38,124 nucleotides of DNA from a virus: IMG/VR virus record IMGVR_UViG_3300033233_000092, positions 1-38,124 of that record. One strand, 5' to 3'. The first letter of the stretch is position 1; every line of letters begins with the position of its first letter. The notes beneath the pieces were generated by a model, which ran no database searches, had not been told where the DNA came from, and saw nothing but the letters and a program-made list of their open reading frames with translations. This document shows, in pieces, positions 141-38,124 of this stretch. The translations under genes were made by a program, and so were the position numbers.

Positions 141-1114
141 ACTTCTTTTTTCGAAAGTCCGAGCGCGGAATCGGGAATTTCCAGCGGGTCGCTGTCGGTA
201 ATTTTACGATACACCGTCCCGCGAAAGAGTTCTGGTGTTGTCTGGCAATCAATGGCGTCTTTGACGATACGGTCCATAACTGCTTTCCCGCCTGCGATAC
301 GGTTCTCGAAGGCTGCGCCGATTGCACGGATCTCTGTTTCGTTTGCATTTCGTTCCGCTGCAATCTCCTCCGCTGTTTTTGTTGCTTTGTCCATATTGTG
401 TTCTCCTTTGGTTGTTATTGTTACTGGTGCCTCGCCGATTTGTTCGGGAGGAGTTGATTCAAATAATCGTTTCATATACGTTAGCAGTTCACGCTCGCTT
501 GCATTGACCGGCATTCCGATTTTTTGCAATTGCTCCATTACTGCATTGTTTGAGCGGATGCTTTTGGTTACCGCGTTCTCATCCGCGCCAATGGGCACAA
601 GACTCAGCTCTTTCAATTGCCACTTGGTCGTAACCCGCAGCGGTCCTGCATATTCTTTCCCGCCGATGATTTGTTTTTCGCTTTCTGGTATAAAAAAGGA
701 TTCGAGCGCACGATAGCCGACTGACAGGTCGGTGAGATGTCCGTCGCGCGCCAACTGTTCGGCGGTTTTTGCGCGGTCGGTGCTTGAAAAATAAATCGTG
801 CCTTCTTTTTGGTCGTTGAGGGTTTGAAATTCGCGCGCTGTGCCGAGAATTGATTCGATGCTGAACCTATTGTGCGAATCGAGGAGCGGGACTTGCGCTC
901 TGCCTTGCGGAAGTTCCATACCGTCCATTTTCAAAATTTCATCGACGACCATCCAGCGTTCCCAGTCAATCATCGGCGTGGGCTTTTCGCTGGCGGCGAT
1001 GACTCGCATCGAATGTTTTTCTGGATTGTAGCTTTGCGGCAATGTTTCAATTGCGCGGGTCGAGAGCTGCTCTTCTAATGCGCTTCGTAATGTTTCAATT
1101 TCTTGTTTTGTCAT
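1..1114 (-). CDS. Prohead protease-major capsid fusion, N-terminal part (continues across the join)
   Basis: This open frame starts at ATG 1114, overlapping the portal stop as ATGA, and leaves the window at base 1. It continues in the same frame at 37984 down to 37065, giving about 677 residues. Residues 1-240 are an HK97-type (S78) prohead protease: LLDSHNR near 78-84 holds the likely catalytic His, DLSVGY near 129-134 the likely catalytic Ser, and ELSLVPIGAD near 169-178 is the conserved trailing motif. The protease would cleave the capsid N-terminus during head maturation. An internal ATG at 394 (residue 241) is preceded by AAAGGAG at good spacing, so capsid can probably be made alone. HK97 itself uses separate protease and capsid genes; fused forms are known in other phages. 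Confidence 0.9.
   Translation of the reverse strand, partial: MTKQEIETLRSALEEQLSTRAIETLPQSYNPEKHSMRVIAASEKPTPMIDWERWMVVDEILKMDGMELPQGRAQVPLLDSHNRFSIESILGTAREFQTLNDQKEGTIYFSSTDRAKTAEQLARDGHLTDLSVGYRALESFFIPESEKQIIGGKEYAGPLRVTTKWQLKELSLVPIGADENAVTKSIRSNNAVMEQLQKIGMPVNASERELLTYMKRLFESTPPEQIGEAPVTITTKGEHNMDKATKTAEEIAAERNANETEIRAIGAAFENRIAGGKAVMDRIVKDAIDCQTTPELFRGTVYRKITDSDPLEIPDSALGLSKKEVKNYSVMRAIRGILKNENDVDATFERECSNEIAKKLGPPQGFYVPYE
392..409 (-). promoter_or_regulatory. Internal ribosome binding site and start for capsid alone
   Basis: Read on the minus strand, AAAGGAGAA (409-401) stands 6-7 bases before an in-frame ATG (394-392) at codon 241 of the protease-capsid fusion, exactly where the protease domain ends and the capsid delta domain begins. 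Translation from here would give a product of about 437 residues. This would allow many capsid copies per protease copy from one frame. It is inferred from sequence only. Confidence 0.75.
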
Positions 1115-2709
1115 GATGGTTCGAGTTCTCCGTTCATTTCTTTGAGGATTGCTTTTATTTTTCTTAAATATATTTTCATCTCTCGGCTGTTCTGCGTTTG
1201 GTTCGATGGATTCGCATCGGCGGATGGGACTGTAGGCGAATCGAAGTCCAATATCACGCCCTTGCCTTCGGCATATTTTTTGACTTTTGCCATTTCATCG
1301 ATCAGTTCGTAAATATTATCGCCGTTCTGTGCCGCTTCTCTGAGCGGGTTCGTCAATCCCATACGCGAGCGTGTTTCGATTGCTGTCGCATCTTTTGCAG
1401 GGTCTATCCAGGGCCAGCGCTTGCCGACGAAGTAGGGTTGATTAAATCTTTCAAATTGCGTGAATGCCTGCGGTCCCAAATCGAGCGCACCTGACAGCAA
1501 TGCCGATTTGAGCCAATCGGAGAATACTGCGTCCATGAACGATTCGATGAACCACTCTTGGTCCATCATCCATGTTTCCCGCTCATCCTGCAGCCCGATT
1601 CTTCCCGAGCTGTAGCTTGTTTCGGTGAGGTCGTTCGCCATCGTGATGTAAGAGACTCTCAGCGCCGAGGCGATGTCTTTTTTCATCCCTTTCCCGAACA
1701 TTTCGAATTGCTGGTCGGGAAATTTATTGTCGGGGACGTTGACGTTGTAGCCCGGGTTGACTTCGAAGAGGCTCATTTCTTCTACGTCGATAACTTGATT
1801 GCCTTTTGCATCGAGCTCATTTCCTATGATGGAGGCTGGGGCATCTTCTTTCCGTTCGAGGAAGCCGATGCGACGCGCTGTGTTGATTGAGTTTGAGCCG
1901 TGCGCTCGGACATAATCCCACAAAAGTTTCATCGGCATGAGCGCCGATGCCATGGGTGTGATGCCGCGGGATGCGAAGGCGCGTCCTTTTTCAAAATCAT
2001 AGTAAAATTCTTCGATTGGCTTGCGCGTGCGCTCGGTTGCGTATGCGTATGAATAAATATTTGCCTGCGGCGTGGATGGCTTGAGATACAATGCTTTCCG
2101 ATTGCGCCATTGGTCATATTCTACTCCCATGATGACGACGTTGCCGCCGGGCAATTGTTCGCTGTACATATCATCAATTATATCGGGGTCGAGGACTTGC
2201 AAATGGAATCCATATTTCGAGCGGTCATATATTTTGCGGACAAGATATTCTCCATCACGCTTCCAATGTATGATGACGAGGTGTTGGATTTCACGGAAGT
2301 TATCCTGCGCGCTGATGTCGCAATTTTCTTTCTTCCCCCAATTGAGAAAGCCCGTTTTAATTTTCTGTGAACTTATTTCATCAATGAGAATATTTCCCGC
2401 TTCATCGAGCATTGGGCGATTTTGCTTGTCCCATTGCTGGGCTTTGACGTTCAGCGTGAAGCCATACGCGCCTGCAATATTTTTGCGGGACAAGTCGATG
2501 TAACGCGTGCCGAGCGGGTTGTTATTGCTTACATCGCGGGCTATCCCGCGCAGTGCCATCATGTCGGATTTGATTTCGTAGTCTGCGGGCGTGACGGTCC
2601 GGAACCAGCCCGATGTAATGCGGTTATGCTGCGCCGCTTCGTGTCCGCGTCTACTGATATTTATCAGCGTGCGTCCAAGCGTGTTTAATATTTTCTGAAT
2701 GCGATTCAG
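1111..2709 (-). CDS. Portal protein, lambda GpB type
   Basis: This forms the dodecameric DNA channel of the head. The C-terminal half carries the lambda-portal signature NDLTETSYSSGRIGLQDERE. The first ATG in frame is at 2562 (483 residues), but the frame stays open upstream and encodes plausible portal N-terminus (NRIQKILNTLGRTLINISRR). A CTG at 2709 overlaps the upstream stop as CTGA, with GGAG about 8 bases ahead. Starting there gives 532 residues, close to lambda GpB (533). I prefer the CTG start; the exact codon is uncertain. The gene lies between the GpW-like joiner and the protease-capsid fusion, as in lambda. Confidence 0.9.
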   Translation of the reverse strand: MNRIQKILNTLGRTLINISRRGHEAAQHNRITSGWFRTVTPADYEIKSDMMALRGIARDVSNNNPLGTRYIDLSRKNIAGAYGFTLNVKAQQWDKQNRPMLDEAGNILIDEISSQKIKTGFLNWGKKENCDISAQDNFREIQHLVIIHWKRDGEYLVRKIYDRSKYGFHLQVLDPDIIDDMYSEQLPGGNVVIMGVEYDQWRNRKALYLKPSTPQANIYSYAYATERTRKPIEEFYYDFEKGRAFASRGITPMASALMPMKLLWDYVRAHGSNSINTARRIGFLERKEDAPASIIGNELDAKGNQVIDVEEMSLFEVNPGYNVNVPDNKFPDQQFEMFGKGMKKDIASALRVSYITMANDLTETSYSSGRIGLQDERETWMMDQEWFIESFMDAVFSDWLKSALLSGALDLGPQAFTQFERFNQPYFVGKRWPWIDPAKDATAIETRSRMGLTNPLREAAQNGDNIYELIDEMAKVKKYAEGKGVILDFDSPTVPSADANPSNQTQNSREMKIYLRKIKAILKEMNGELEPS

Positions 2710-3266
2710 GATGTTGCTCCGAGATTCACTAAGATTTTTTTCCGCGTTCCGCCGTTCGCCATTGCGTCAGCATCTTTTGCATTCTTGATTCTCGTTTCGA
2801 GACGGCTTTGCCATGCGAGAAGGTCGGGAAGGTCGGCTTGACGGTATGTTCTTCCATTGTAGGTGAATTCATATTTCGGGTTTGCGGCAAATGCTTTTAA
2901 TATCTCATTCAGATTGTCGAGCGTTTGCTGATCGGTCGTGCGGCGGTCCTGCGGTTCATTGGCAAGGGCTAAGTTTTCTTCTACTTCGATGCGGTCGAGG
3001 CGGACGGTATGACGCTCGAGGACGCTATCGACTGTTTTTTCTACCCACTTGACGTATTCATAAATTCCAGGTACGATTTTCGCCGAGTCTGCGGCGGTGA
3101 TGGTGCAATCCCATCCGTCGTTATTCCGCGTGCCTGTGACTGTGGTTTGTGTATCGCCGCTGATTTTATACTTCAGCGTCCAGCCGGCGGAGGCGGGATA
3201 GCCGCTTGCAGTGGTGGTCCAGCTTACGGTGTCGCCTGCGATGAATTTTTCGGGAAGTTCGGTCAT
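2706..3266 (-). CDS. Head-tail joining protein, GpW-like C-terminus with N-terminal beta domain
   Basis: 186 residues. The first ~95 are Thr/Ser/Gly-rich with a beta pattern (SGYPASAGWTLKYKISG). Residues ~110-175 (LNEILKAFAANPKYEFTYNGRTY and following) resemble lambda GpW: helix, beta hairpin with NGR, then helix. In lambda, W sits between terminase A and portal B, which matches this position. GpW is only 68 residues, so the N-terminal domain would be extra. The assignment rests on weak similarity and synteny. Its ATG overlaps the upstream stop (TAATG). Confidence 0.5.
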   Translation of the reverse strand: MTELPEKFIAGDTVSWTTTASGYPASAGWTLKYKISGDTQTTVTGTRNNDGWDCTITAADSAKIVPGIYEYVKWVEKTVDSVLERHTVRLDRIEVEENLALANEPQDRRTTDQQTLDNLNEILKAFAANPKYEFTYNGRTYRQADLPDLLAWQSRLETRIKNAKDADAMANGGTRKKILVNLGATS

Positions 3267-3439
3267 TAAATTTCTTTGCCTTCCTGAGTTAATGCGCCGA
3301 CTTTAGCGTATGCAGTGAAGTGCCTGCGCTTGCAAACTTTACAGATACGCACTTCAAGGTCTTGACGTGCGTCCGGATGGTCGGGCTTGAGCTCGAGGTT
3401 GCTTTCAATTTTGCAGCAGTCTTTTCGTCCGTCTTCCAT
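3266..3439 (-). CDS. Small Cys-containing protein
   Basis: 57 residues starting at ATG 3439, which shares one base with the upstream stop. It contains a CC pair near residues 7-8 and CKVC near 35-38, a possible metal knuckle (RICKVCKRRHF). A longer frame starting at 3541 overlaps the upstream gene and is unlikely. The coupling on both sides suggests it belongs to the head operon. Function is not recognised. Confidence 0.65.
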   Translation of the reverse strand: MEDGRKDCCKIESNLELKPDHPDARQDLEVRICKVCKRRHFTAYAKVGALTQEGKEI

Positions 3440-3918
3440 TATGCGAGCGTGTATATTGTGCCGGGATTTGCGTTGTTGAATTTCACGGTGAATGTTTCGC
3501 CGTCGTTCAGCGTTACTCCGCCCGCGCCGTAGTCCCACCATGCGATGACGGGACGCGCCGTAGCCGTGCCGCCCGTGTCGTCGAATAACACGGCATATCG
3601 AAATGTCGGCAGTGCGCCGCCCGATGCGGTGAAGACTACCTGATTTGCCGCGAGCGTGAATGTGCCGCTCGTTTGCGATGCGGTGGTGACTGTTACTGCG
3701 CCGCCTTTTTTTGTGTAGCCGTTTCCTGCGGCGATTTCATTCGCATTGGACGTGGCTTCTACAATACATACTGCGCCTCCGCTCGGAACATTAACACGAA
3801 TGTCGGCGGCGTTGGGCGAGGTGTTGGTGAGCAGAAGGAAAAGGGAATCTGCGCTGACGTCAATTTTTTTCTTGTTGAGGTCTTCGACGAATTGGTTGAA
3901 CTTGTTCTGTATGGCCAT
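3439..3918 (-). CDS. Putative virion structural protein, beta-rich
   Basis: 159 residues. It begins MAIQNKFNQFVEDLNKKKIDV and continues with a Gly/Thr/Ala-rich beta pattern (GNGYTKKGGAVTVTT, TARPVIAWWDYGAGG, LNDGETFTVKF). Proteins of this type recur in phage head modules; I do not know a proven function. It is the first gene after the gene-free control region 3919-4452 and thus the first of the late head cluster. Decoration or head-completion roles are possible but unproven. Confidence 0.7.
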   Translation of the reverse strand: MAIQNKFNQFVEDLNKKKIDVSADSLFLLLTNTSPNAADIRVNVPSGGAVCIVEATSNANEIAAGNGYTKKGGAVTVTTASQTSGTFTLAANQVVFTASGGALPTFRYAVLFDDTGGTATARPVIAWWDYGAGGVTLNDGETFTVKFNNANPGTIYTLA

Positions 3919-4001
3919 GATTTAGTATGTGAGTATGTAAGAAGTCAGATGTCGGATGTCAGAGGTCAATATTTTTGTTTTCGGTTTTCATGTTGCGTTT
4001 A

Positions 4002-4023
4002 GATCCCGCCCTTCGGCGGGATT
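4002..4023. repeat. GC palindrome GATCCCGCC/GGCGGGATT
   Basis: Perfect 9-bp arms around CTTC. It belongs to the CCGCC/GGCGG class of short palindromes also seen at 6008-6022 and 16189-16202. No T-run follows on the minus strand, so it is not a terminator for the late operon. Confidence 0.75.
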
Positions 4024-4115
4024 CTCAACATCACAAAGCCGCTCGTGTACTCGCGGGTGATGTTGGAAAATAAAATGTCCCGCTCATTCGCCGTTGCGCA
4101 ACGAATAAACGGGAC

Positions 4116-4153
4116 AAAAAAAATGCTGAACTACTGCTGCAGCAGTTCAGCAT
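4116..4153 (-). terminator. Rho-independent terminator just below the late promoter
   Basis: Minus-strand hairpin with arms ATGCTGAACT (plus 4123-4132) and AGTTCAGCAT (4144-4153) around an 11-base loop, followed by a run of T on the minus strand (A-run at 4116-4123 on plus). It lies only about 26 bases past the predicted start of transcription from the promoter at 4186-4214, so the default transcript would be about 60 nt. Confidence 0.7.
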
Positions 4154-4185
4154 ACACTCGAATGACCGTCGTCACCGATAGTTAT

Positions 4186-4228
4186 AGTATATACTTCTTT
4201 TTATGCGAAATCAAGCAGTATTTTACTG
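4186..4228 (-). promoter_or_regulatory. Candidate late promoter with upstream dyad
   Basis: Minus strand: -35 TTGATT (plus 4209-4214), 17-bp spacer, -10 TATACT (4186-4191), expected start near 4179. Directly upstream of the -35 is the perfect dyad CAGTA-TTT-TACTG (4216-4228), centred about 43 bp before the start, where an activator touching sigma could sit. The -10 lies in a second palindrome, AGTATATACT (4186-4195). It points at the head genes. Confidence 0.55.
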
Positions 4229-4263
4229 TTTTTTATGCCTGTAAGTGGTTGAAAAATAAGGTT

Positions 4264-4336
<73 letters not shown>

Positions 4337-4338
4337 GA

Positions 4339-4395
4339 AAAAAAATCCCGTCTACTCAACTCAGAGTGTGCTTTTTCTTTGCTTAGACGGGATTT
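4339..4395 (-). terminator. Rho-independent terminator after the small packaging-region genes
   Basis: Perfect 12-bp arms AAATCCCGTCTA (4343-4354) and TAGACGGGATTT (4384-4395). On the minus strand a T-run follows directly. The loop is long (29 bases) but the stem is strong. It would end transcripts that come through terminase and the methyltransferase, just before the late promoter. Confidence 0.65.
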
Positions 4396-4452
4396 GCCTT
4401 TTTCCTAACGTGATGTGTTTACTTCATTCGATAATGTTCACTCTCCTTTCTT

Positions 4453-4551
4453 TCAGGGTTTCCATGTACTTTGATTGATTTTTTTAATGAGCGGTACATT
4501 AATTATTTTCTGCTGCTTTCTTTTTTTCTGTCCGTATTCCTTCGGCGACAT
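4453..4551 (-). pseudogene. Possible small ORF or duplicated gene 3' end
   Basis: A 32-codon frame beginning MSPKEYGQKKRK, overlapping the 59-residue gene at 4499-4678 in another frame. Its end, PLIKKINQSTWKP, resembles the end of the product of 4732-5013 (TLIKKINQGSWKI), and the underlying DNA is similar over about 45 bp. It has no good ribosome binding site. It could be a leftover 3' end, a real tiny gene, or be reached by frameshifting. Confidence 0.35.
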
Positions 4552-4678
4552 ATTGAACTGTCGGAGCTTTTCTTGTTTCATAAGGGGGCATTGTAGGTGT
4601 TACAGTAATCTTAATTACTTTATCCTTAATGATCGTTGCTACAATATCTTCAGTACCCAAGTTTTTTTTTCTTTTCAT
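4499..4678 (-). CDS. Small basic protein of unknown function
   Basis: 59 residues. The start at ATG 4678 is chosen because AAAGGA lies 8 bases upstream; an ATG at 4699 lacks this. The product is Lys-rich at both ends with a beta-like Thr/Val middle (VIKITVTPTMPPYETR). Not recognised. It sits between the gene at 4732 and the terminator at 4339-4395. Confidence 0.5.
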   Translation of the reverse strand: MKRKKNLGTEDIVATIIKDKVIKITVTPTMPPYETRKAPTVQYVAEGIRTEKKKAAENN

Positions 4679-4731
4679 TTTTCGAATCCTTTCTGTCATG
4701 ATGAATGATTACAATAAATATACTTATTTTT

Positions 4732-5013
4732 TTAGATTTTCCATGAACCTTGATTGATTTTTTTTATGAGGGTTGCATTTATTTTTGCGCCGCCCGCATT
4801 GGTGAACATGAAGTTGACGATTTGCTGCGTTTGCGCCAGTGTGATTTTTTCGATGAGAAAGTTTACCCATTCATCACTGCTCATGTTCATGATTGTTTGT
4901 TGTTCCAACAACTTTGAGACGTTGTGTGGATAGATGTTGACGGTTTTTCTCTCTGGCTTGATGGATGGTTTTTTGTCCTGTATTTCTGGCATTGGTATTT
5001 TTGTTGATATCAT
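4732..5013 (-). CDS. Hypothetical protein, 93 aa
   Basis: Not recognised. It begins MISTKIPMPEIQDKKPSIKP and has a helical, Gln-rich middle (SDEWVNFLIEKITLAQTQQIVNF). Its ATG overlaps the stop of a 27-codon methyltransferase remnant (ATGA, 5010-5013). Its last 13 residues have a diverged copy encoded at 4453-4551. Confidence 0.6.
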   Translation of the reverse strand: MISTKIPMPEIQDKKPSIKPERKTVNIYPHNVSKLLEQQTIMNMSSDEWVNFLIEKITLAQTQQIVNFMFTNAGGAKINATLIKKINQGSWKI

Positions 5014-5914: not shown

Positions 5915-7885
5915 TTATACTTTCCAGCCGCTCCATTTGTTCGAGCGGGAGATTTTTTTGACGAGGTGTTGTTTGCCTTCGGGATTGTTTGGCTCGGCAC
6001 CTTCTGGTCCGCCTACGGCGGATTTTTTTTCGAATATTTCTTTCTGGCGCCCGGACCATGCTTCGAGCGGATTATTCATGACGAGATGACCTGCATACGC
6101 ATAGCCGAGGCAATCGAGCCCGTGATTTTCCATGCCCGATTTTTTTTCCCAAATCAATGTGACATATCCCCGCTTTTGTTTGGGGCGCAATGCTTCGGCG
6201 TTGTATTGTTTCCATTCTTCAAGGTCGCAAAGTTTGTTGAGATGGATGTATCCGTTCCATGGCTTGGGCGTTTCAGCAGATGGACGGTTCATGTATAAAC
6301 GAGAGAGCATCCGTTTCTTAACGACGTCCACTCCGATGATAATATAGTGCGAGCTGTATTTGCTTTTCTTTACGACGCTGACGACTTCTTTTTTCCACCC
6401 GCCTCTGCCGAGCGAGACGATGACTCTTCCTTTGCGGCGCTTCGCATAGCGATGGACGTATTCGCTGTATGCGCCGCCGTCGATGACGGTGAGATTGATT
6501 ATTTTCTCGACGCCGTTCGCATGTTTGAATTTCGATTGAAATATATATGCGTCGAGCATTTTCTCGGTCTGCCCGCCGTTCAGCTCTTCGGGGTTCCCGA
6601 TGATTTGACGTTTGTCGAGGAGCCACATTTCTTCCCCAAGTCCGAAGCCCCATGTGCGGACTTCGAGGCGGTTCTGCTGTACGTCTACGGCGCATACGAT
6701 TTCGAGGACTTCGTCGGGGACTGCGGTGTATTCTTCGGTGCGTTGGGCGAGCTCGTCTAAGCTCAGCTCGATGTGCCCGATTTCGGAATATGTTTCGGCG
6801 AATCGGCTGTTGATGCAGACTTGCAGGTCGTTTTGGTCCCGCGTTTGCCGAGCGGTGAGGAATTCTTTTGCGATTTGCGTCCATGATGTTCCGAGTTGTG
6901 AATAGAGGGCGTTGATTTGGAAGCCAGCATGGTCTGTGACGGATGGGTTTTGCGGTTTCCATTTTCCTTCGGCGCACATTGCGGCTTTGTATTTTTCTTC
7001 GATGGGTTTTTTGCAGTTGCCGCATTGATAATGTACCCAGCTTAAGTTGGCTTCATTGTATAACAGAAATCCATGCGGAAGTTTTTTTGCGAATACGGAT
7101 TTATCGGAAAAGAGCAGGACTTGCTCGAATTTGCAATGCGGACATGGCACGAAATAAAATCGCTGGTCGCTTTGAAGAAAATTTTCTTCGATTTTGGAAT
7201 ATTCTCTTAGCACGGGTTTGCTTGCGATGAGAAGTTTGCCTGCCTTGGGGTCGCGTATGCGTTCTCTCAAGAGTTGCAGCGGGTTGCCGAGCTGTCCCGC
7301 GGTCGGCACCCATGAGTCTATCTCGTCGCCGATTGCTACGTCGATAGAATACATGATGTAACCCTTGCCTGAGACTGTTGCTACGACGATGATGAAGCCG
7401 CCGAGGAATAGTTTGAGCTGGATTTCGGAGCCAGCGGTATGCACTTTTCCGATGTCGATGAGTTTTTTGAGGACGCTCGTGTCGCGAATGAGCGAGGTGA
7501 GGTGCAGCTTGCTCCAATTTTCTGCCAGCTTATCGGTCGGGAATGCGACCATGATTTTGCTCGGCTCGTATTCGATATAATAGCCGATGGTGTTTTCAAT
7601 TATGCTTTGCGTTTTTGCCATGCCGCTCGCCCACATGAGCGTGACCTGACGGATGTTTTGAGCTGAGGTCGCGCAATCGAGCGGTTCGCGTGCATAGGGC
7701 GCTTTTCGGAACGTGAATTTTTGTTCTTGCCCGCCTTCAGCGCTGAGCCGGCGATGCCTGAGTGCCCATTCGCTTCCTGTGAGCGGCGGCTTTGGAAGTA
7801 CAAGCTTCGCCGCTTCCGCCAGCGCTTTCTGTACGTTGAGGAGTGCTGATGGATGGGTGCGGTATGGTTGAGTGAATTGAATCAT
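5915..7885 (-). CDS. Terminase large subunit, lambda GpA family
   Basis: 656 residues (lambda GpA is 641). This is the ATP-driven DNA-packaging motor and nuclease. The ATPase nucleotide-binding stretch is WASGMAKTQS near 85-94 and Walker B is VAIGDEID near 183-190. CPHC and CGNCKK form a Cys cluster near 260-330, as in GpA. The nuclease part likely begins at VCAVDVQQNRLEVRTWGFG. The GpA family implies cos-type packaging; I could not locate cos. The extreme C-terminus includes a GC palindrome (6008-6022) read through as coding sequence, and the start lies in an 8-bp tandem repeat. Confidence 0.93.
   Translation of the reverse strand: MIQFTQPYRTHPSALLNVQKALAEAAKLVLPKPPLTGSEWALRHRRLSAEGGQEQKFTFRKAPYAREPLDCATSAQNIRQVTLMWASGMAKTQSIIENTIGYYIEYEPSKIMVAFPTDKLAENWSKLHLTSLIRDTSVLKKLIDIGKVHTAGSEIQLKLFLGGFIIVVATVSGKGYIMYSIDVAIGDEIDSWVPTAGQLGNPLQLLRERIRDPKAGKLLIASKPVLREYSKIEENFLQSDQRFYFVPCPHCKFEQVLLFSDKSVFAKKLPHGFLLYNEANLSWVHYQCGNCKKPIEEKYKAAMCAEGKWKPQNPSVTDHAGFQINALYSQLGTSWTQIAKEFLTARQTRDQNDLQVCINSRFAETYSEIGHIELSLDELAQRTEEYTAVPDEVLEIVCAVDVQQNRLEVRTWGFGLGEEMWLLDKRQIIGNPEELNGGQTEKMLDAYIFQSKFKHANGVEKIINLTVIDGGAYSEYVHRYAKRRKGRVIVSLGRGGWKKEVVSVVKKSKYSSHYIIIGVDVVKKRMLSRLYMNRPSAETPKPWNGYIHLNKLCDLEEWKQYNAEALRPKQKRGYVTLIWEKKSGMENHGLDCLGYAYAGHLVMNNPLEAWSGRQKEIFEKKSAVGGPEGAEPNNPEGKQHLVKKISRSNKWSGWKV
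6008..6030. repeat. Palindrome TCCGCC-TAC-GGCGGA plus T-run inside the terminase gene
   Basis: Perfect 6-bp arms followed on the plus strand by eight T. In the minus frame it encodes part of EKKSAVGGPEG near the terminase C-terminus. By shape it is a plus-strand terminator, but no plus-strand transcript is expected here, so it looks like an inserted host-type palindromic repeat. Confidence 0.65.
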
Positions 7886-7935: not shown

Positions 7936-8577
7936 TTATTTTCTTTTTGCTGTTTTTTTTTGTACGGTTTCTGTTGTTTTCATTTCGCCTATGTCTGCGG
8001 ACAATTGTTCGGGAATGCCGGCGAGCTCATGGGCGGTTTCTTCGACAAATTCTTTTACGATTTGCTGAAGCTCGGCGGGCGCTTGCCTTTGTATGAGGCG
8101 AAGATGCTTGCCTGTTTCGTTGTTATACATTGCCATGATGCGCTGGAGGTCTTCTATGGCGATGATGTGAGATTGTAATTTGGCATTTTGAATTTCGAGT
8201 TTTAATAATTTTTGCCTGTTGATTTTTTCTTCGGTGTCGGTGAGGTTTTCGAGCTCGTAGATGCGTTCATTGAGTTTGGCAATGATCGCCCGAACGCATT
8301 CGACGAGCGGATATACTCCACGGTCTGTGCGCGGGATGATTTTATCATTCGCCCAATTGTCAATCTGCCGTTCCGTTCTGCCCGACATCGCGGCGAGTTT
8401 GCCAACGGTGGTATTTTCTGCGACGAATTTGATGTACCATTTAATGAATTCTCGCGCGTTTTCTTCTTTTTCAAAGACGTTCGGCGCTCCATGTTTGTTG
8501 ACGTGCAACCGCATCTGCGCAATGGTGATATTGCAGAGTTCGGCAATCTGGCGGAGACGTTTGAGGTCATCGGACAT
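7936..8577 (-). CDS. Terminase small subunit, Nu1-like
   Basis: 213 residues. An N-terminal helical segment is followed by a helix-turn-helix (VGKLAAMSGRTERQIDNWANDKIIP near 58-82) and a long charged coiled coil (KINRQKLLKLEIQNAKLQ near 118-135). This is the layout of Nu1-type DNA-recognition subunits, and the gene sits directly upstream of GpA as in lambda. The Lys-rich C-terminus could contact the large subunit or DNA. Its ATG abuts the Gp37/Gp68 stop. Confidence 0.8.
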   Translation of the reverse strand: MSDDLKRLRQIAELCNITIAQMRLHVNKHGAPNVFEKEENAREFIKWYIKFVAENTTVGKLAAMSGRTERQIDNWANDKIIPRTDRGVYPLVECVRAIIAKLNERIYELENLTDTEEKINRQKLLKLEIQNAKLQSHIIAIEDLQRIMAMYNNETGKHLRLIQRQAPAELQQIVKEFVEETAHELAGIPEQLSADIGEMKTTETVQKKTAKRK

Positions 8578-9339
8578 TTAGGCGCTGAGCAATTCTTTTA
8601 AAAAAATCTTGCTGAGATATTTCTCGTCGGGAAAATTCCTGATGGTTTCGCCATCGAGCTCGATGCCCATTTCCGTCCGCCATGCCGCCGATTGCTTATG
8701 AAAAAATGCGACATTATGCTCGATGCACTTTGCACGCATATCTCTTGCCCATTGCTTATCTTCTTTTCGGAAATTTTTTCCCGATTCGCCGCCGTAAATT
8801 ACCCAATGTATGCCATTGAGATTGATAGTTGACGCAAGCGGTCCCAATGCTGGCTCGTAGCTGATGAATCTGATTTTTGCTTTTATGCCTCGGAGGATAT
8901 CGGCACGAAAGGCATATTCTTCATTTTCGATAGAGGTTCCGAGCCAAACGTTCTGCGGTAGTATGTCGGGAGAGAAGCGTTTAATATTTTCGGGTCGTTT
9001 CGTGAGGAGTTGCCATTCGAGATTCGGCGTCTGCATAATTAATACCCAAAGTTGATTACGCCAGGGGATGAGTTGGTCGTTGTCCTCGAAGATATCTGCA
9101 AGGGAAGCGCAGAAGACTTTGTTCGGTCCGCCATTTGCCGCTATCTTATTCCACTGTAAAGGCTGTTTCCAGTAAGCAACCGATGTGCGCTGGCGTGGAG
9201 CTGTTCCCCATACGTTTAATCCCATGCGGTTTTTTGTGAGTGTTTCGGCGTAGCAGTTCTTGCATCCCGGTGAAACTTTGATGCAACCCATCCAGGGATT
9301 GAAGGTGTAATTTGTCCAGGCGATTATTGAGTTTTCCAT
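8578..9339 (-). CDS. Phage Gp37/Gp68 family protein (DUF5131)
   Basis: 253 residues. It has the family hallmarks NPWMGCIKVSPGCKNCYAE (Cys triad near 19-29), FCASLADIFED, QLLTKRPENI and RFISYEPALGPL, and a late IYGGESG. The family resembles radical-SAM folds and recurs in phages, but its reaction is not established to my knowledge. It overlaps the ParB-methyltransferase hybrid by 16 bases and directly precedes terminase, a common arrangement in phages. Confidence 0.88.
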   Translation of the reverse strand: MENSIIAWTNYTFNPWMGCIKVSPGCKNCYAETLTKNRMGLNVWGTAPRQRTSVAYWKQPLQWNKIAANGGPNKVFCASLADIFEDNDQLIPWRNQLWVLIMQTPNLEWQLLTKRPENIKRFSPDILPQNVWLGTSIENEEYAFRADILRGIKAKIRFISYEPALGPLASTINLNGIHWVIYGGESGKNFRKEDKQWARDMRAKCIEHNVAFFHKQSAAWRTEMGIELDGETIRNFPDEKYLSKIFLKELLSA

Positions 9340-9857
9340 GTGATTTCTTTGCCGTTCAATTTAATTTCGGACTTGCCTGTGTATTTGCACCAGCGAGTAA
9401 TGATGACATCGCAATATCTCGGCTCGATTTCCATGCCGTAGCAAATGCGTTTGAGTTGCTCGGCGGCGATGAGGGTCGTGCCGCTTCCCAAAAATGAATC
9501 TAAAATGATATCCGATTCTTGACTTGAATTTAGAATTGCGTTAGCAACCAAAGGAATCGGTTTCATGGTCGGATGCAAGTCGGATTTTATCGGCTTATCA
9601 TAATTCCAATTATCGAGCGGGAGGTTCACTTCGTAACAGGGATATTCTGCCCAGCCGAGCTCTTGGGCTACTGCTATGCGCTGGTGACCCCCTATTATCA
9701 CATGATTGCGCTTGGGATGTATATTTATTACAGCTGGTTCTACTGCGCCGAACTTTTCAAGCGAAAGTTTGAGGTCGGTTTTTTGTTTTTTCGTCAGCTT
9801 GCGCGGATTATATTCTGCGGGTTTAAGGTCAGAAATTTTGTAATACCTAATTTTCAT
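9324..9857 (-). CDS. ParB-like/methyltransferase hybrid lacking the catalytic middle
   Basis: 177 residues from ATG 9857. Residues 1-80 are a ParB/sulfiredoxin-type domain (ISDLKPAEYNPRKL; VIIGGHQRIAVAQELG). Residues ~85-177 match the C-terminal part of ParB-linked methyltransferases (HPTMKPIPLVANAILNSS, ILDSFLGSGTTLIA, YGMEIEPRYCDVIITRW). Intact relatives are roughly twice as long; here the segment with the DPPY catalytic motif is missing and the frame is clean across the junction. It should bind SAM poorly or not catalyse at all. It may be a deletion derivative kept as a DNA-binding regulator, or decaying. Confidence 0.8.
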   Translation of the reverse strand: MKIRYYKISDLKPAEYNPRKLTKKQKTDLKLSLEKFGAVEPAVINIHPKRNHVIIGGHQRIAVAQELGWAEYPCYEVNLPLDNWNYDKPIKSDLHPTMKPIPLVANAILNSSQESDIILDSFLGSGTTLIAAEQLKRICYGMEIEPRYCDVIITRWCKYTGKSEIKLNGKEITWKTQ

Positions 9858-9881
9858 TTCAAAAAGCAAATGGAATAGAAA

Positions 9882-18699: not shown

Positions 18700-18728
18700 A
18701 ATATAAAACATTTTCAGATGATTGTCAA
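18700..18728 (-). promoter_or_regulatory. Early lytic promoter
   Basis: Minus strand: consensus -35 TTGACA (plus 18723-18728), exactly 17 bp, then -10 TATATT (18700-18705). Expected start near 18693. The spacer holds the putative operator ATTTTCAGATGA, so bound repressor would block RNA polymerase directly. It drives the long minus-strand early run. Confidence 0.8.
18710..18721. promoter_or_regulatory. Putative repressor operator O1
   Basis: ATTTTCAGATGA inside the spacer of the early promoter. An identical 12-mer lies 33 bp away (18743-18754). The core TTCA-GA-TGA is nearly self-complementary. Confidence 0.6.
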
Positions 18729-18742
18729 GTAAAAAATGAGGA

Positions 18743-18754
18743 ATTTTCAGATGA
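18743..18754. promoter_or_regulatory. Putative repressor operator O2
   Basis: Second copy of ATTTTCAGATGA; with the following base it forms the dyad TTCA-GA-TGAA. It overlaps the ribosome binding site and start codon of the repressor gene, so it could mediate autorepression. Confidence 0.55.
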
Positions 18755-19149
18755 ACCCTAAAAATGCTGAAATTGCACGTAGATTAAGGGAATTTGGAGA
18801 AAAAAAATATCCCTCTATGGCCGCATTTGCCCGTGCATTAGGCATTCGCCCGCAGGCATTAAGCAGTTATCTTAAAGCACGATCCCGACCTGGATATGAC
18901 TTACTGATGAAGTTGAAAGAATTGGGATGTGATATCGATTGGCTGATGACAGGTAAGGGCGAAAATCCAATATTCTTTATTGGAAAAGATGAAAAAGAAG
19001 TGTTATCTTATTTGAAATCACTCGGCATTAATTCAGTAGAAGAAGCGCAGGCATTTTTTGCGCCTGAGAATATCGCTCAGGATATTGCGCTACTTCTCCG
19101 TGAACGCGCCGTAAAATATCAAATCAAACGAAAGGGAAAATCATCATGA
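18751..19149 (+). CDS. CI-like repressor, XRE-type helix-turn-helix
   Basis: 132 residues. ATG 18751 is preferred because GAGGA stands 8 bases before it; an ATG at 18736 would add five residues. SMAAFARALGIRPQALSSYLKARSRPG near 22-48 is the DNA-binding HTH, and DIDWLMTGKG near 61-70 is a hallmark of this repressor class. The C-terminal part is short and lacks a LexA-like Ser/Lys peptidase, so RecA-triggered self-cleavage is not evident. Transcribed away from the early promoter; the next gene overlaps as ATGA. Confidence 0.85.
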   Translation: MNPKNAEIARRLREFGEKKYPSMAAFARALGIRPQALSSYLKARSRPGYDLLMKLKELGCDIDWLMTGKGENPIFFIGKDEKEVLSYLKSLGINSVEEAQAFFAPENIAQDIALLLRERAVKYQIKRKGKSS

Positions 19150-19674: not shown

Positions 19675-20664
19675 ATGCCCTCCCTCCGCCGCACCCGCAA
19701 AGGTTTCTATTTTCTCGACCTCCGCATCGACGGCAAACGGCAGCGCATATCTCTTAAAACTAAAGACCGTAAGCTCGCCTCTGCCAAAGCTAAGTATCTT
19801 CTGCGCGAACTCGAAGGACCGCATGTCGCCCGCCGCGTTACGCTCCAAGAGTTTATTCCAGAGTATCTCCTCTATGCCGAGCCGCGCAAAGCCAAAGGCA
19901 CGCTCATCAAAGAGCGCTTCGCTCTCCAGAACCTCGCCGTCATTTCTAACGTTAAATATCTCGACGACATTTCCTTCCGTATCGCCGATGATTTTATTTC
20001 CGTCATTGCAAGGAAAATTTCGCCCCACACGGTCAACAGCTATCTCGCCTCGCTCCGTTCTGTCTTCAATACTGCGCTCTCGTGGGAATACATTGCAGAA
20101 AATCCCTTCAGGAAAGTCAAGAAAATCCGCGCAGAGCTGCCAGAAGTCCGCGCACTCTCCCTCGATGAAATTAACCTCATCCTCGCTATGACGCGCACCA
20201 TGCGCCCCGCCTATGAGCCGCTCTTCCAGTTCTATCTCCTTACCGGCATCCGCCGCACAGAAGCCATCAACCTCGAATGGCAGGATGTGGATTTCGAGCG
20301 CAATGTCATTCTCATCAAACGCACGAAAGGCAAACGACCACGCATTATGTTCCTCTCGCCGCTCGCTCAGCACATTCTCAAAACTCGTAGCGAATTTTCC
20401 AAGCCGTTTGATTTCCAGCCGCCACGAGTTACTGAAACGTTCAAACTCATTGCGCGCAAAGCCGGTATTATGGATGTGAAGCTCCACAACCTGCGCGCTT
20501 CGTTCATCACCTACTCGCAGGATATCGGGATGCCAATCAACTTCATCGAGAAGCTCATTGGACACGTCAATCGCAGCGTCACACGGGATTACTATACCGG
20601 CATTCTCCCTGATGTGATGAAAAATTATCTCACGAAATTGCAGGAAAAAATCTTCCAAAATTGA
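19675..20664 (+). CDS. int: Tyrosine recombinase (phage integrase)
   Basis: 329 residues. An N-terminal arm-binding region (KGFYFLDLRIDGKRQRISLKTKD) is followed by a SAM-like core-binding domain (~53-140) and a catalytic domain with R193 (LTGIRRTEA), H271-x-x-R274 (HNLR), H297 (IGH) and the nucleophile Tyr at 306 or 307 (TRDYYTG). It catalyses integration and excision between attP, about 110 bp downstream, and a host tRNA-Leu gene. No clear ribosome binding site precedes ATG 19675. The long minus-strand frame opposite it is a shadow. Confidence 0.95.
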   Translation: MPSLRRTRKGFYFLDLRIDGKRQRISLKTKDRKLASAKAKYLLRELEGPHVARRVTLQEFIPEYLLYAEPRKAKGTLIKERFALQNLAVISNVKYLDDISFRIADDFISVIARKISPHTVNSYLASLRSVFNTALSWEYIAENPFRKVKKIRAELPEVRALSLDEINLILAMTRTMRPAYEPLFQFYLLTGIRRTEAINLEWQDVDFERNVILIKRTKGKRPRIMFLSPLAQHILKTRSEFSKPFDFQPPRVTETFKLIARKAGIMDVKLHNLRASFITYSQDIGMPINFIEKLIGHVNRSVTRDYYTGILPDVMKNYLTKLQEKIFQN

Positions 20665-20771: not shown

Positions 20772-20830
20772 GGACTCAAAATCCAGTCCGGCTTACCCCG
20801 GGTGAGGGTTCAACTCCCTCCTTCAGCACT
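20772..20830 (+). other. attP core: 3' part of tRNA-Leu(CAA)
   Basis: The sequence reproduces a class II tRNA from the anticodon loop to the end: CTCAAAA loop (anticodon CAA), 3' anticodon stem TCCAG, variable arm CCGG-CTTACC-CCGG, T arm GAGGG-TTCAACT-CCCTC (20804-20820), acceptor strand CTTCAGC (20821-20827) and discriminator A. The matching 5' half (GCTGAAG and D arm) is absent, and the 5' anticodon stem (GCGGA) no longer pairs fully. So this is an attachment core that rebuilds a host tRNA-Leu gene on integration, not a functional tRNA. Confidence 0.88.
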
Positions 20831-21525: not shown

Positions 21526-21661
21526 GTTACTTACACCCGATGTAAGGTAATACGATTCAATATGGTTACCAAGTCATTTCTTGTTATGTCTAATATACAA
21601 AAGGAGTTATGGTTTTCAAAATCAATTTGGTTTCCATGTTTTTTGTCTCGGAATTTTTAAT

Positions 21662-21708
21662 AAAAAAACCTTCCTACAACACGCTCGGCAGCGCCATCTC
21701 GGAAGGTT
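21662..21708 (-). terminator. Terminator of the late operon
   Basis: Minus-strand arms AACCTTCC (plus 21701-21708 side) and GGAAGGTT (21667-21674 side) around a 26-base loop, followed by seven T. It lies about 100 bp past the last late gene and faces the plus-strand cargo unit. Confidence 0.75.
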
Positions 21709-21735
21709 CGGTGGGTCGGTTCGGCGGGCTCTTTA

Positions 21736-21803
21736 TTATAAGCCGGCTGCGAGGAGGAAGCGGAACCCCGCACTCTCCCCCTACGGAGAGAACGCCGGCT
21801 CTC
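21736..21803 (-). ncRNA. Structured 3' untranslated region of the late operon
   Basis: Outer stem AGCCGGC (21741-21747)/GCCGGCT (21794-21800) encloses GCGG/CCGC (21760-21771) and CTCTCC/GGAGAG (21773-21790), a three-way-junction-like fold just ahead of the terminator. No known RNA family is recognised. The surrounding gap 21526-21809 has no convincing gene. Confidence 0.45.
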
Positions 21804-21809
21804 TAAAAA

Positions 21810-22091
21810 TTATACTAAAACATTGTATATATTTTCAATTGAAACGGAAACTTGCCTTTGTATTTGTTCACCATTTTGAACGTTCCCATGACCACTGGCA
21901 TTAATTTTCAACATAGGTTCTTTACTTCCATATTTTGCCTCATCGACAAAATTATTCTTAACCAATCCCACAAGATGTGGTAAAGCTGTATCATATTCTA
22001 TTTTTGATTGATCGCTCATTTTTGCAGATTCCGCTTCTAATGCTTCTGCTACTTTTTGAGGTTTACCAATAAAAGCAATTGACCAACTCAT
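21810..22091 (-). CDS. Conserved-looking hypothetical protein, last late gene
   Basis: 93 residues, beginning MSWSIAFIGKPQKVAEALEAES. A helical first half and a beta-like second half (MLKINASGHGNVQNGEQ). Similar short proteins occur in other phages; function unknown. It follows the lysis candidates and precedes the operon terminator. Confidence 0.6.
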   Translation of the reverse strand: MSWSIAFIGKPQKVAEALEAESAKMSDQSKIEYDTALPHLVGLVKNNFVDEAKYGSKEPMLKINASGHGNVQNGEQIQRQVSVSIENIYNVLV

Positions 22092-25273: not shown

Positions 25274-25372
25274 TTATTCGATGTTCGAGGTTCGATGTTT
25301 GATGTTTGATGTTCGATGTTCGATATTTGATGTTCGATGTTTGATGTTCGATGTTTGATGTTCGATATTGAA
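25274..25372. repeat. 7-bp tandem repeat, long tract
   Basis: About 14 units of GATGTTC/GATGTTT/GATATTT filling the gap between two tail genes. Largest tract of the family in the window. Confidence 0.92.
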
Positions 25373-26254: not shown

Positions 26255-27022
26255 TTATCCCGCCGCCTGTTCTTTCATTACAAATTTTTTGATATTATTA
26301 ATATTAATTCTATCGTACTCTACGGGCAAATAATCCGCATCGAGATGAACGTAGAAAATAGCCGCGCTGTAATCGATGTAATAAAACGGACGGAACTTTC
26401 CTCTCGCCGTTCCGAGCCACGTCAGGAAGTTCGCCTTCGTCGCATCGGGCAAGTTCATGAAATCGAGCTCCCACGTCTTTCTTCCGCCGTACATTTGCGC
26501 CGTCCGTATGATGCCGGAGAGCGAGGTCTTCTCCGTCGTCTCGAATTTCGGGTTCTTCTCCCGTATCGGAAACTCCGCAGGGTAATCCATCACGAACCTG
26601 CTCGCTAAAAAAATGTTCCCCAATTGCGGCGCCCAGTTCAGCGCGCCGTTAAAATACAACCTTCGGTATCGGCGCGAAACGGGACTCGGTTCTAATTCCC
26701 ACGGGTCGGTCGTCGGGTCGATATTGAACGTTCCCAGCGCGCTCGTAAATCCGCTGTCGCTCGCGTGCTGGTATTGTAAGTTTCCGCTCGCCATGATGCC
26801 GTTGAAATTGTGATTTCCTAAAATCAGCGTGTCAATCGTCGTTGCCGCTCCCATATCGATTGCCAGCGTCTGCCCCGTCGTTGCCGCTGCCGCTTTCCAT
26901 TGATGCTTTTCTACATAATCATATAAATTATCGGTCGGATATCCAGCCGCCGAGCCAGCGCTCGCTGTGATGCTCGCATATGCTGCATTCAGGTCTATTG
27001 CAAGGAATTTAGGGTTTGCCAT
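26255..27022 (-). CDS. Tail-tip protein with galactose-binding-like domain
   Basis: 255 residues. LAIDMGAATTIDTLILGNHNF near 53-73 and later RYRRLYFNGALN are the pattern of F5/8-type C (discoidin-like) beta sandwiches that bind sugars. The C-terminal half (KTWELDFMNLPDATKANFLTWL) resembles other phage tail-tip proteins. A host-surface binding role fits. A 7-bp repeat tract lies across its start (27020-27066). Confidence 0.65.
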   Translation of the reverse strand: MANPKFLAIDLNAAYASITASAGSAAGYPTDNLYDYVEKHQWKAAAATTGQTLAIDMGAATTIDTLILGNHNFNGIMASGNLQYQHASDSGFTSALGTFNIDPTTDPWELEPSPVSRRYRRLYFNGALNWAPQLGNIFLASRFVMDYPAEFPIREKNPKFETTEKTSLSGIIRTAQMYGGRKTWELDFMNLPDATKANFLTWLGTARGKFRPFYYIDYSAAIFYVHLDADYLPVEYDRININNIKKFVMKEQAAG

Positions 27023-27066
27023 GTTCGATGTTCGTTATTCGATGTTCGATGTTCGATGTTCGTTAT
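27020..27066. repeat. 7-bp tandem repeat across the tail-tip gene start
   Basis: ATGTTCG, ATGTTCG, TTATTCG, ATGTTCG x3, TTATTCG. The first unit includes the start codon of 26255-27022. Confidence 0.9.
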
Positions 27067-27071
27067 TCGGT

Positions 27072-34605: not shown

Positions 34606-34875
34606 TTATTCTCCTTGATTATGTTCGGTTGATGGTTCGATGTTCGATGTTGATTGTTCGATGTCCGATGTTGGTTGTTCGATGTCCGCTTTGGCTTGCG
34701 CTTCGAGTGATTTTTTTACTTCCTCCGCCGCTTTCGCTTCTGGCGTGTGGCTGCCGTCTTCGTTGCGTACCATTTGGGTGACGTAACCGGGAAGCGGCTC
34801 GATGCTGGATATTGGTTCTTCGATGTCCGATGTCGGATGTTCGATGTTCGATGTTGGTTTGGTTTTTTTGGGCAT
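34606..34875 (-). CDS. Small protein largely built from 7-bp repeat DNA
   Basis: 89 residues. Both ends read from GATGTTC-family repeats (TSNIEHPTSDIEEPISS; TSDIEQSTSNIEPSTEHNQ), while the middle (GYVTQMVRNEDGSHTPEAKAAEEVKKSLEAQAK) is ordinary sequence. It is probably a small head/tail gene enlarged by repeats. Function unknown; expression uncertain but spacing is operon-like. Confidence 0.55.
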   Translation of the reverse strand: MPKKTKPTSNIEHPTSDIEEPISSIEPLPGYVTQMVRNEDGSHTPEAKAAEEVKKSLEAQAKADIEQPTSDIEQSTSNIEPSTEHNQGE

Positions 34876-37064: not shown

Positions 37065-38124
37065 TTAGCTGAATGTCGTGCAGATGGACAATGCGCCCGG
37101 CTGTACGTAGGCATAATCGCCCGTCTGGAAGCCGACGATGCGCGTTCCGCCGCTCGTTAATAGCGCTTCTTTTGAAATCGCAATATCGAGCACGCCCCAC
37201 AATCCCATGACGATGGAATTGAAGGCGCCGAATCCTATCTTCAACGTGCTCATGCCCGTCGTTACGAGCACGGGATAGCCGTTCATTTCATTCCCTGTGA
37301 CGAGATAGATGCCCGATGTGTTCGAACCTTTCAACCGGGTTTTCAGCGTGCCGCGCACCGATGGACGCATGACGAAGGCAAGCGGACCGTAATCGTCCGC
37401 GTTGGCTTCTGCTACGTCAGTTTCGAATTCGACTGCACTTTCCCAGTTGAAATCAGTTCCGTCAACTGTGCCGATGCCAGAGACGTTGATTAAGCCGCGC
37501 GGTTCTCCGCTCGCTGCGGCGCCGTCAAAAAGCGCTGTATTGAATTTGCGCGCGATGACTTGCGCCACTGCGTTCAACACGATGCCGTCAACTGCGGGCG
37601 TGGATTGCAGCATCAGTTCTCGCGTGATGTCTACCCATGCGCCGACTGTTTTTGGCGCGAGCGCTGCCTGACCGAATGTCGGCTGTGATTCGGTGGTCGG
37701 GTCACCTTCTGTGGCTATCCAATATGCGGTCGGGTCGCCCGTGGCCCTGGGAATTGTAACATTGCCGCGCAATCCGGGAAGCATTTGTATGCCAAGCTGG
37801 AATGCGAGCAGCTTTGCACGGAGCAAGTCTTCGTAACTCGCCGCCATCAAGTCGGTGCCGACGAGATTGCCGCCAGCCGTGGAGGTCGTGATGTTCAAAT
37901 CACGCTGGCTAATTCCTGCGCGTTGAAGGATCGTTCGCACGACGCGTTCCTGCGCCGGTGTGATGTTCAGCTCTGCTCGCTGGACTTCGTAGGGCACGTA
38001 GAATCCCTGGGGCGGACCAAGTTTCTTGGCGATTTCATTCGAGCATTCACGCTCGAATGTGGCATCGACGTCGTTTTCATTTTTAAGTATGCCCCGGATT
38101 GACCGCATTACTGAATAGTTCTTG
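37065..38124 (-). CDS. Major capsid domain of the protease-capsid fusion (runs off the right edge into base 1114 region)
   Basis: This is the C-terminal part of the frame that begins at 1114. Within it, YSVMRSIRGILKNEND starts the conserved region (an ATG at 38108 is internal, not the true start). NLVGTDLMAASYEDLLRAKLLAF, WVDITRELMLQST, AVAQVIARKFNTALFDGAAA and GVLDIAISKEALLTSGG are HK97-fold capsid features. It forms the icosahedral shell. The delta/scaffold segment (fusion residues ~241-330) precedes it and would be removed by the protease. Confidence 0.92.
   Translation of the reverse strand, partial: KNYSVMRSIRGILKNENDVDATFERECSNEIAKKLGPPQGFYVPYEVQRAELNITPAQERVVRTILQRAGISQRDLNITTSTAGGNLVGTDLMAASYEDLLRAKLLAFQLGIQMLPGLRGNVTIPRATGDPTAYWIATEGDPTTESQPTFGQAALAPKTVGAWVDITRELMLQSTPAVDGIVLNAVAQVIARKFNTALFDGAAASGEPRGLINVSGIGTVDGTDFNWESAVEFETDVAEANADDYGPLAFVMRPSVRGTLKTRLKGSNTSGIYLVTGNEMNGYPVLVTTGMSTLKIGFGAFNSIVMGLWGVLDIAISKEALLTSGGTRIVGFQTGDYAYVQPGALSICTTFS
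37985..38124. repeat. Terminal overlap copy 2
   Basis: Matches 1-140 with one difference (a at 38102 versus c at 118). See copy 1. Confidence 0.93.

Follow-up and report, generated by a model that had tools for sequence, protein, structure and literature searches.

The locus studied here raises the question of why a promoter should run directly into a terminator at the boundary between the terminase and head genes of a phage. A promoter with its own terminator immediately downstream is sensible only if that terminator is passed conditionally, or if the short RNA is itself the product. The arrangement was examined in a viral record of 38,124 bases (the whole stretch analysed, hereafter the window) and in diverged relatives (loci with L numbers).

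Organization of the phage genome

The window represents a temperate tailed phage with nearly all of its genes on the minus strand. On that strand, a putative early promoter is followed by small early ORFs, an HerA-like ATPase, DUF5131, the terminase small (TerS) and large (TerL) subunits, a methyltransferase, a 93-aa ORF and a 66-aa ORF. Beyond the 66-aa ORF are the promoter-terminator region (the cassette), a phrog_644 gene and the head-tail joining, portal and protease genes. The major capsid and tail genes are at the opposite end of the record and extend to about 22 kb.

19675–20664, plus strand: integrase
18736–19149: CI-like repressor
18700–18728, minus strand: putative early promoter TTGACA-17-TATATT, 11/12 consensus match
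7936–8577, minus strand: TerS
5915–7885, minus strand: TerL, GpA type, upstream of the cassette
4732–5013, minus strand: 93-aa predicted ribbon-helix-helix (RHH) protein, candidate regulator (alignment, HMM search, AlphaFold2 models and fold matches)
4499–4699, minus strand: 66-aa ORF between the RHH gene and terminator T0, no family match
3439–3918, minus strand: first gene past the cassette, phrog_644 family
2706–3266, minus strand: head-tail joining protein, phrog_5774
1111–2562, minus strand: portal protein

The near-consensus early promoter suggests that a sigma70-type consensus fits this phage. The protease (1–1114) and capsid (37065–38124) genes, at opposite ends of the record, both belong to phrog_617; the record is therefore probably circularly permuted, with reading frames off across the join.

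The sequence-only reading had placed head, tail and lysis genes downstream of the promoter. The head and tail genes are indeed there, but no lysis genes were identified in the window, and TerS and TerL lie upstream of the promoter rather than downstream.

The predicted promoter and terminators at the junction

The features of the junction, and the one comparable terminator elsewhere in the window, are as follows.

4343–4395, minus strand: T0, intrinsic terminator upstream of the promoter, closing the upstream unit (-18.9 kcal/mol, T-tract)
4261–4329, strand not assigned: 7-bp tandem repeat spacer, GTTGGAT, resembling arrays at four other places in the window
4230–4238, minus strand: GCATAAAAA, the upstream member of a 9-bp direct repeat (32-bp period)
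4216–4228, minus strand: dyad CAGTA-AAA-TACTG adjoining the -35 element, not significant alone
4186–4214, minus strand: predicted promoter TTGATT-17-TATACT (-35 TTGATT at 4214–4209, 17-bp spacer, -10 TATACT at 4191–4186)
4198–4206, minus strand: GCATAAAAA, second copy, within the -35/-10 spacer
4158–4178, minus strand: 5' hairpin of the predicted leader RNA
4116–4153, minus strand: T1, promoter-proximal intrinsic terminator with U8
4067–4116, minus strand: T2, second and stronger terminator directly after T1, with a TTTTATTTT tail as in relatives
4003–4022, minus strand: short CCCGCC/GGCGGG hairpin lacking a T-tract, ahead of the first head-module gene
21660–21709, minus strand: strong terminator, probably closing the late unit (-20.8, folding-based scan)

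The promoter sequence proposed on the minus strand in the sequence-only reading was confirmed, together with a strong intrinsic terminator 26 nt past its predicted start near 4179. The bare promoter pattern is unremarkable (14 matches in 10 kb, 13.0 expected); within its own 120-nt stretch it was equalled by 6 of 300 shuffles and is moderately significant. AACTAT at 4183–4178, picked by eye, is a candidate -10-like pause element, the start site being predicted only. The dyad that had been placed near -43 is present at 4228–4216, but arms of at least 5 occurred in 138 of 1000 shuffles of the stretch, and no second exact copy exists within the window. The direct repeat of GCATAAAAA at 32-bp spacing was reached in 3 of 500 shuffles, a post hoc value for a repeat found after the fact. 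A direct search with 3600–4800 found no DNA-level relatives among phage records, and the exact -10 region pattern gave seven scattered matches among viral contigs. Taken alone, the promoter and dyad of the window are weak evidence.

A folding-based scan of the minus strand over the whole 38 kb returned T0, T1, T2 and the hairpin at 21709 as the strongest terminator-like structures. As three of these four lie within 330 bp at one junction, this is very probably a transcription boundary. The T1 hairpin (ATGCTGAACTGCTGCAGCAGTAGTTCAGCAT, 4153–4123) has 14 perfect pairs (-20.2 kcal/mol) followed by 8 T, and the T2 hairpin (4116–4076) has 18 pairs (-27.2 kcal/mol) followed by TTTTATTTT. The RNA predicted to run from the start to the end of T1 (4179–4116) is 64 nt long and folds 5.5 sd better than its own shuffles (z = -5.5). 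Its length agrees with the default product of about 60 nt that had been compared with the lambda 6S RNA, although it is shorter than 6S itself, which is about 194 nt. An Rfam search yielded nothing at gathering scores, and its weak matches were taken as chance.

Recurrence of the arrangement in diverged phages

Searches by TerL, capsid or the 818-aa tail-region protein found no close relatives in the collections searched. Distant relatives were gathered by TerL and portal, and 133 loci carry both genes. A loose terminator scan was not enriched between them (29 of 133 loci, compared with 28 and 41 in controls). A strict scan, for which at least 8 pairs and a T-tract were required, was enriched, with 23 sites compared with 12 on the other strand and 4 downstream. 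A strict terminator lies in the TerL-portal interval of the window and of L008, L076, L078, L089, L093, L095, L099, L108, L111, L125 and L164, and L122 adds another. In 12 other diverged viral contigs, a strong terminator thus fills the slot between the terminase genes and the head-tail joining and portal genes. Seven further loci with terminator-like sites (L079, L145, L203, L207, L224, L226 and L233) were set aside as lacking a convincing cassette.

The cassettes are built alike. TerL is followed by one or two small ORFs and a brief non-coding segment bearing a sigma70-like promoter, after which come a leader, a terminator and the next gene. The terminator tail is often TTTTTTATTT, and in several loci the next gene follows within 20–40 bp. 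In most relatives a single terminator abuts the start of the next gene; L108 also has the terminator-promoter-terminator order. When tested by shuffling, the promoter reached p <=0.02 in 7 of the 13 cassettes (the window and the six loci below), compared with 3 of 105 controls, for which the stretch immediately behind TerL was taken from phages that have no cassette.

L078: TTGACC-17-TAAATT
L111: TTGATT-17-TAAATT
L099: TTGACA-17-TAGATT
L089: TTGACA-17-TAGTTT
L164: TTGACA-17-TAATTT
L122: TTGACA-18-TAGGAT

A clear sigma70 promoter is absent from the cassettes of L008, L076 and L095, which perhaps rely on an activator or on a promoter of another type.

Comparison of the region among related phages had been suggested as a check, and its outcome supports the proposal: the order of promoter, terminator and head/tail genes recurs at the same slot in diverged contigs, and is therefore very probably a selected arrangement. 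This recurrence, drawn from comparison of sequences, is the main argument that the finding is real. In VP882, phiHAP-1, Mano and S-LBS1, described phages whose packaging module is related, the terminase and joining genes are adjacent, and neither the RHH gene nor the cassette is present.

The downstream phrog_644 family was also tried as a guide. Among its 60 loci, the stretches upstream of the 14 best matches, compared by eye, share no such region; the gene is therefore mobile and uninformative. Upstream of the phrog_644 homologue in L017, L018 and L020–L022, a conserved block around ATTACATTTTGTAACA and then CAACTTAGGTGAGATATGGCA, with a dyad, lies just before the start codon in surroundings that otherwise differ.

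A small predicted RHH gene behind TerL

The sequence-only reading had predicted an antiterminator or activator encoded in the early region. The candidate found instead is a small protein, predicted to be RHH, whose gene directly follows TerL. By alignment, a small ORF behind TerL is common to the cassette loci. A profile built from 11 of the small proteins and searched against all loci gave 20 matches, nearly all in the slot or, on contigs that lack a portal gene, right behind TerL. In a TerL tree of 103 dereplicated loci (in which L164 was not placed), the window falls in a clade of 12 (support 99), all 12 of which carry an RHH-like gene; outside this clade the gene is rare. Ten of the 12 have a strict terminator, and these are all ten tree members with both features. 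Among loci with room for both, the terminator accompanied the RHH gene in 10 of 15 cases, compared with 2 of 27 where the gene was absent (Fisher test, p = 1e-4), an association that is biased upward and a test that overstates independence because the profile was seeded from cassette loci. Five RHH loci (L082, L165, L101, L157 and L129) have no strict terminator, so the two are not inseparable. L125 has a cassette and no RHH gene, and L163, whose TerL is closest to that of L008, gave no RHH match.

AlphaFold2 predicted a strand-like stretch followed by helices at residues 7–20 and 24–34 with pLDDT >90, the model being weaker for the window protein. The predicted model has the strand-helix-helix fold of about 45 residues, and its structural matches are almost all RHH proteins (CdbA, PutA, Arc, CopG, AmrZ, NikR and SvtR). 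These matches score low (Foldseek probability at most 0.99, E 0.47; Z at best about 4), as expected for only 40 residues. Pfam returned nothing above cut-off for the small protein, and PHROGs did not recognise the family, giving Arc-like matches only at E 0.03–0.2, for L076 and L089. The proteins resemble Arc, CopG and PutA in predicted fold and in having repeats of about 10 bp as candidate sites, but differ from them in having a conserved C-terminal tail (often NW..R) and in forming a family that neither database recognises. One protein, at L101:7953-8267, holds two RHH-profile matches in tandem and is possibly a single-chain dimer.

L122 has no RHH gene; at L122:753-1025, upstream of its promoter and terminator, the slot is instead taken by the gene for an activator of the Mor/C family (PF08765, E 2.6e-7). 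This suggests that the slot is a place for late regulators.

Candidate operator repeats

RHH dimers typically bind repeats of about 10 bp. Tandem repeats with a period of 10–11 lie near the promoter in seven RHH-bearing loci, and were reached in 0 of 500 shuffles in L008, L095, L129 and L165, 2 of 500 in L089, 11 of 500 in L093 and 21 of 500 in L099. Wherever a -35 element can be named, the repeats adjoin or overlap it. Judged by sequence, such repeats would be suitable operators for RHH proteins. In their place the window has the dyad and the GCATAAAAA direct repeat.

Comparison with known late switches

The lambdoid PR'-tR' switches controlled by Q (lambda, 21 and 82) resemble the window in their sigma70-type promoter, close downstream terminator, structural genes beyond and regulator gene nearby. 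As a matter of sequence only, the window has a promoter followed by a promoter-proximal intrinsic terminator, and one GCATAAAAA copy between -35 and -10 as a candidate site. The likeness to PR'-tR' proposed at the outset is thus borne out in the order of promoter, terminator and head/tail genes, but not in the upstream terminase, the lysis genes or the regulator. The Q antiterminator families PF06530 and PF03589 had no match in the window (positive controls matched); the search with a further Q family, PF06323, was uninformative, as no control matched. The candidate regulator is predicted to be RHH rather than HTH, and the clear repeats in relatives lie at or above -35, whereas the Q-binding element (QBE) lies between -35 and -10. 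The Q protein of phage 21 uses direct-repeat sites in its promoter (PMC6606751).

In Pseudomonas aeruginosa, the small DNA-binding protein AlpA binds its promoter and lets RNA polymerase pass a downstream intrinsic terminator (PalpB-tB; PMC9371919). Unlike the candidate here, it is an HTH protein that controls lysis genes from a site between -35 and -10. GafY and GafZ activate the head-tail gene cluster of the Caulobacter gene transfer agent and provide antitermination (PMC11150451), but they are two proteins acting with IHF, and their terminator lies after the first gene rather than in the leader. All three systems, Q, AlpA and GafYZ, act by binding in or near a promoter and enabling RNA polymerase to pass terminators (PMC6606751, PMC9371919, PMC11150451). 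The element in the window would be like these systems in anatomy, which does not imply membership.

The Mor/C activators of Mu-like phages are likewise small late activators encoded next to their target, as in the L122 slot; the Mor/C domain (PF08765) had no match in the window, and no leader terminator is known for the Mu late promoters. The RinA/ArpU-type late regulators of Gram-positive phages are encoded by a small gene at the edge of the morphogenesis module, but act upstream of TerS and not between TerL and portal. Because the known Q families PF06530 and PF03589 are absent from the window, the predicted regulator fold is different and the position is between terminase and portal, we class the element as an attenuated late promoter of lambda-like type, probably with an RHH regulator. 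No RHH late regulator and no promoter-terminator between terminase and portal were found described in the literature searched.

A model for the cassette and its alternatives

We lean modestly towards a variant of the lambda-type late switch in which an attenuated late promoter with T1 and T2 is run by the RHH protein encoded behind TerL. Transcription of the early and terminase unit would end at T0. Polymerase starting near 4179 would by default make the 64-nt RNA ending at T1, T2 would be a further block, and the head-tail operon would therefore be silent. As the RHH protein accumulates, it would act at sites next to -35, raising initiation, loading onto polymerase so that T1 and T2 are passed, or both, and the head and tail genes would be made after terminase. 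The elements of the cassette, their conserved order in relatives, the co-occurrence with RHH genes and the 10–11 bp repeats in seven loci can be read from the sequences; we infer the rest: use of the promoter, regulation of readthrough, the regulatory role of the RHH protein, and both the direction of its effect and the step at which it acts. A bolder form, which we regard as unlikely, would make these proteins a new, unrelated class of promoter-loaded processive antiterminators that bind the repeats, board polymerase and take it past the leader terminator, and that fill the role of Q or AlpA by means of an RHH fold and a conserved C-terminal tail.

Several other explanations bear on the same observations. 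T0, T1 and T2 might just insulate the head genes from early transcription, with an accidental promoter match and a head operon driven from elsewhere. Three terminators within 330 bp are what an insulator would provide, and 9/12 promoter matches are common in the window. Insulation is rather unlikely, however, given the excess of significant promoters before cassette terminators over controls, the single terminator at the start of the next gene in most relatives, and the lack of any other 9/12 promoter match between T2 and the first head-module gene. That the hairpins are 5' stabilisers of head-gene mRNA and not terminators is very improbable: they do lie close to the start codon in loci such as L078 and L099, but a T-tract, often TTTTTTATTT, follows them, and T1 has U8.

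The short RNA could itself be the product, as a trans-acting or RNA-based regulator whose location ahead of the head genes is fortuitous or provides readthrough mRNA in addition; IsrK of Gifsy-1 is a precedent for a small RNA gene with a readthrough mRNA (PMC4825925). The 64-nt RNA has two hairpins and folds well, the leaders of L078 and L111 keep two hairpins via compensatory changes, and those of L093, L095 and L099 share CUGAUCA, in L093 and L099 as the loop of a hairpin ahead of the terminator. Yet the leaders are otherwise unlike one another, Rfam has no match and the position is fixed at the head-module boundary, and we consider this reading quite unlikely. The RHH protein might instead act as a repressor, closing the promoter at late times or in the lysogen, with T1 and T2 leaky or passed by another factor; this is possible though doubtful. 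Most known phage RHH proteins, such as Arc and Mnt, are repressors, and L101 has a dyad between -35 and -10. The clearest repeats, on the other hand, lie upstream of or overlap -35, and the promoters of L008 and L095 have no good -35, which activation fits better; L122, moreover, carries an activator-family protein in the slot.

If the model of an RHH-run attenuated promoter is right, these uncultured phages, a clade whose terminases are lambda-type (GpA), control when their head and tail genes are expressed by a regulated promoter-terminator module between terminase and portal. The module would be paired with an undescribed small regulator, whose fold would extend the small set known among phage late-switch proteins. 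Parts of this size can be tested in a standard laboratory system.

Other features of the window

A second promoter-to-terminator unit occupies 21655–21838 on the minus strand, where there is no ORF. Its promoter, TTGAAA-18-TATAAT (21838–21809, 11/12), precedes a well-folding RNA of about 140 nt (z -2.3) and the long-loop terminator at 21709 with T7; this may be a small RNA at the end of the late unit, and has no Rfam match. Just behind the integrase, 20772–20828 on the plus strand resembles the 3' half of a tRNA-Leu (CAA) gene and is a probable attP core; an attB pattern search for a matching host tRNA-Leu gave no match. In a short protein encoded at 9324–9869 (minus strand), the N-terminal domain of ParB is joined to the C-terminal portion of an N6/N4 methyltransferase. 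Arrays of 7-bp units (GTTGGAT/TTCGATG) occur in five places (4261–4329, 25277–25366, 27021–27069, 34621–34688 and 34819–34855) and are perhaps a host-type repeat.
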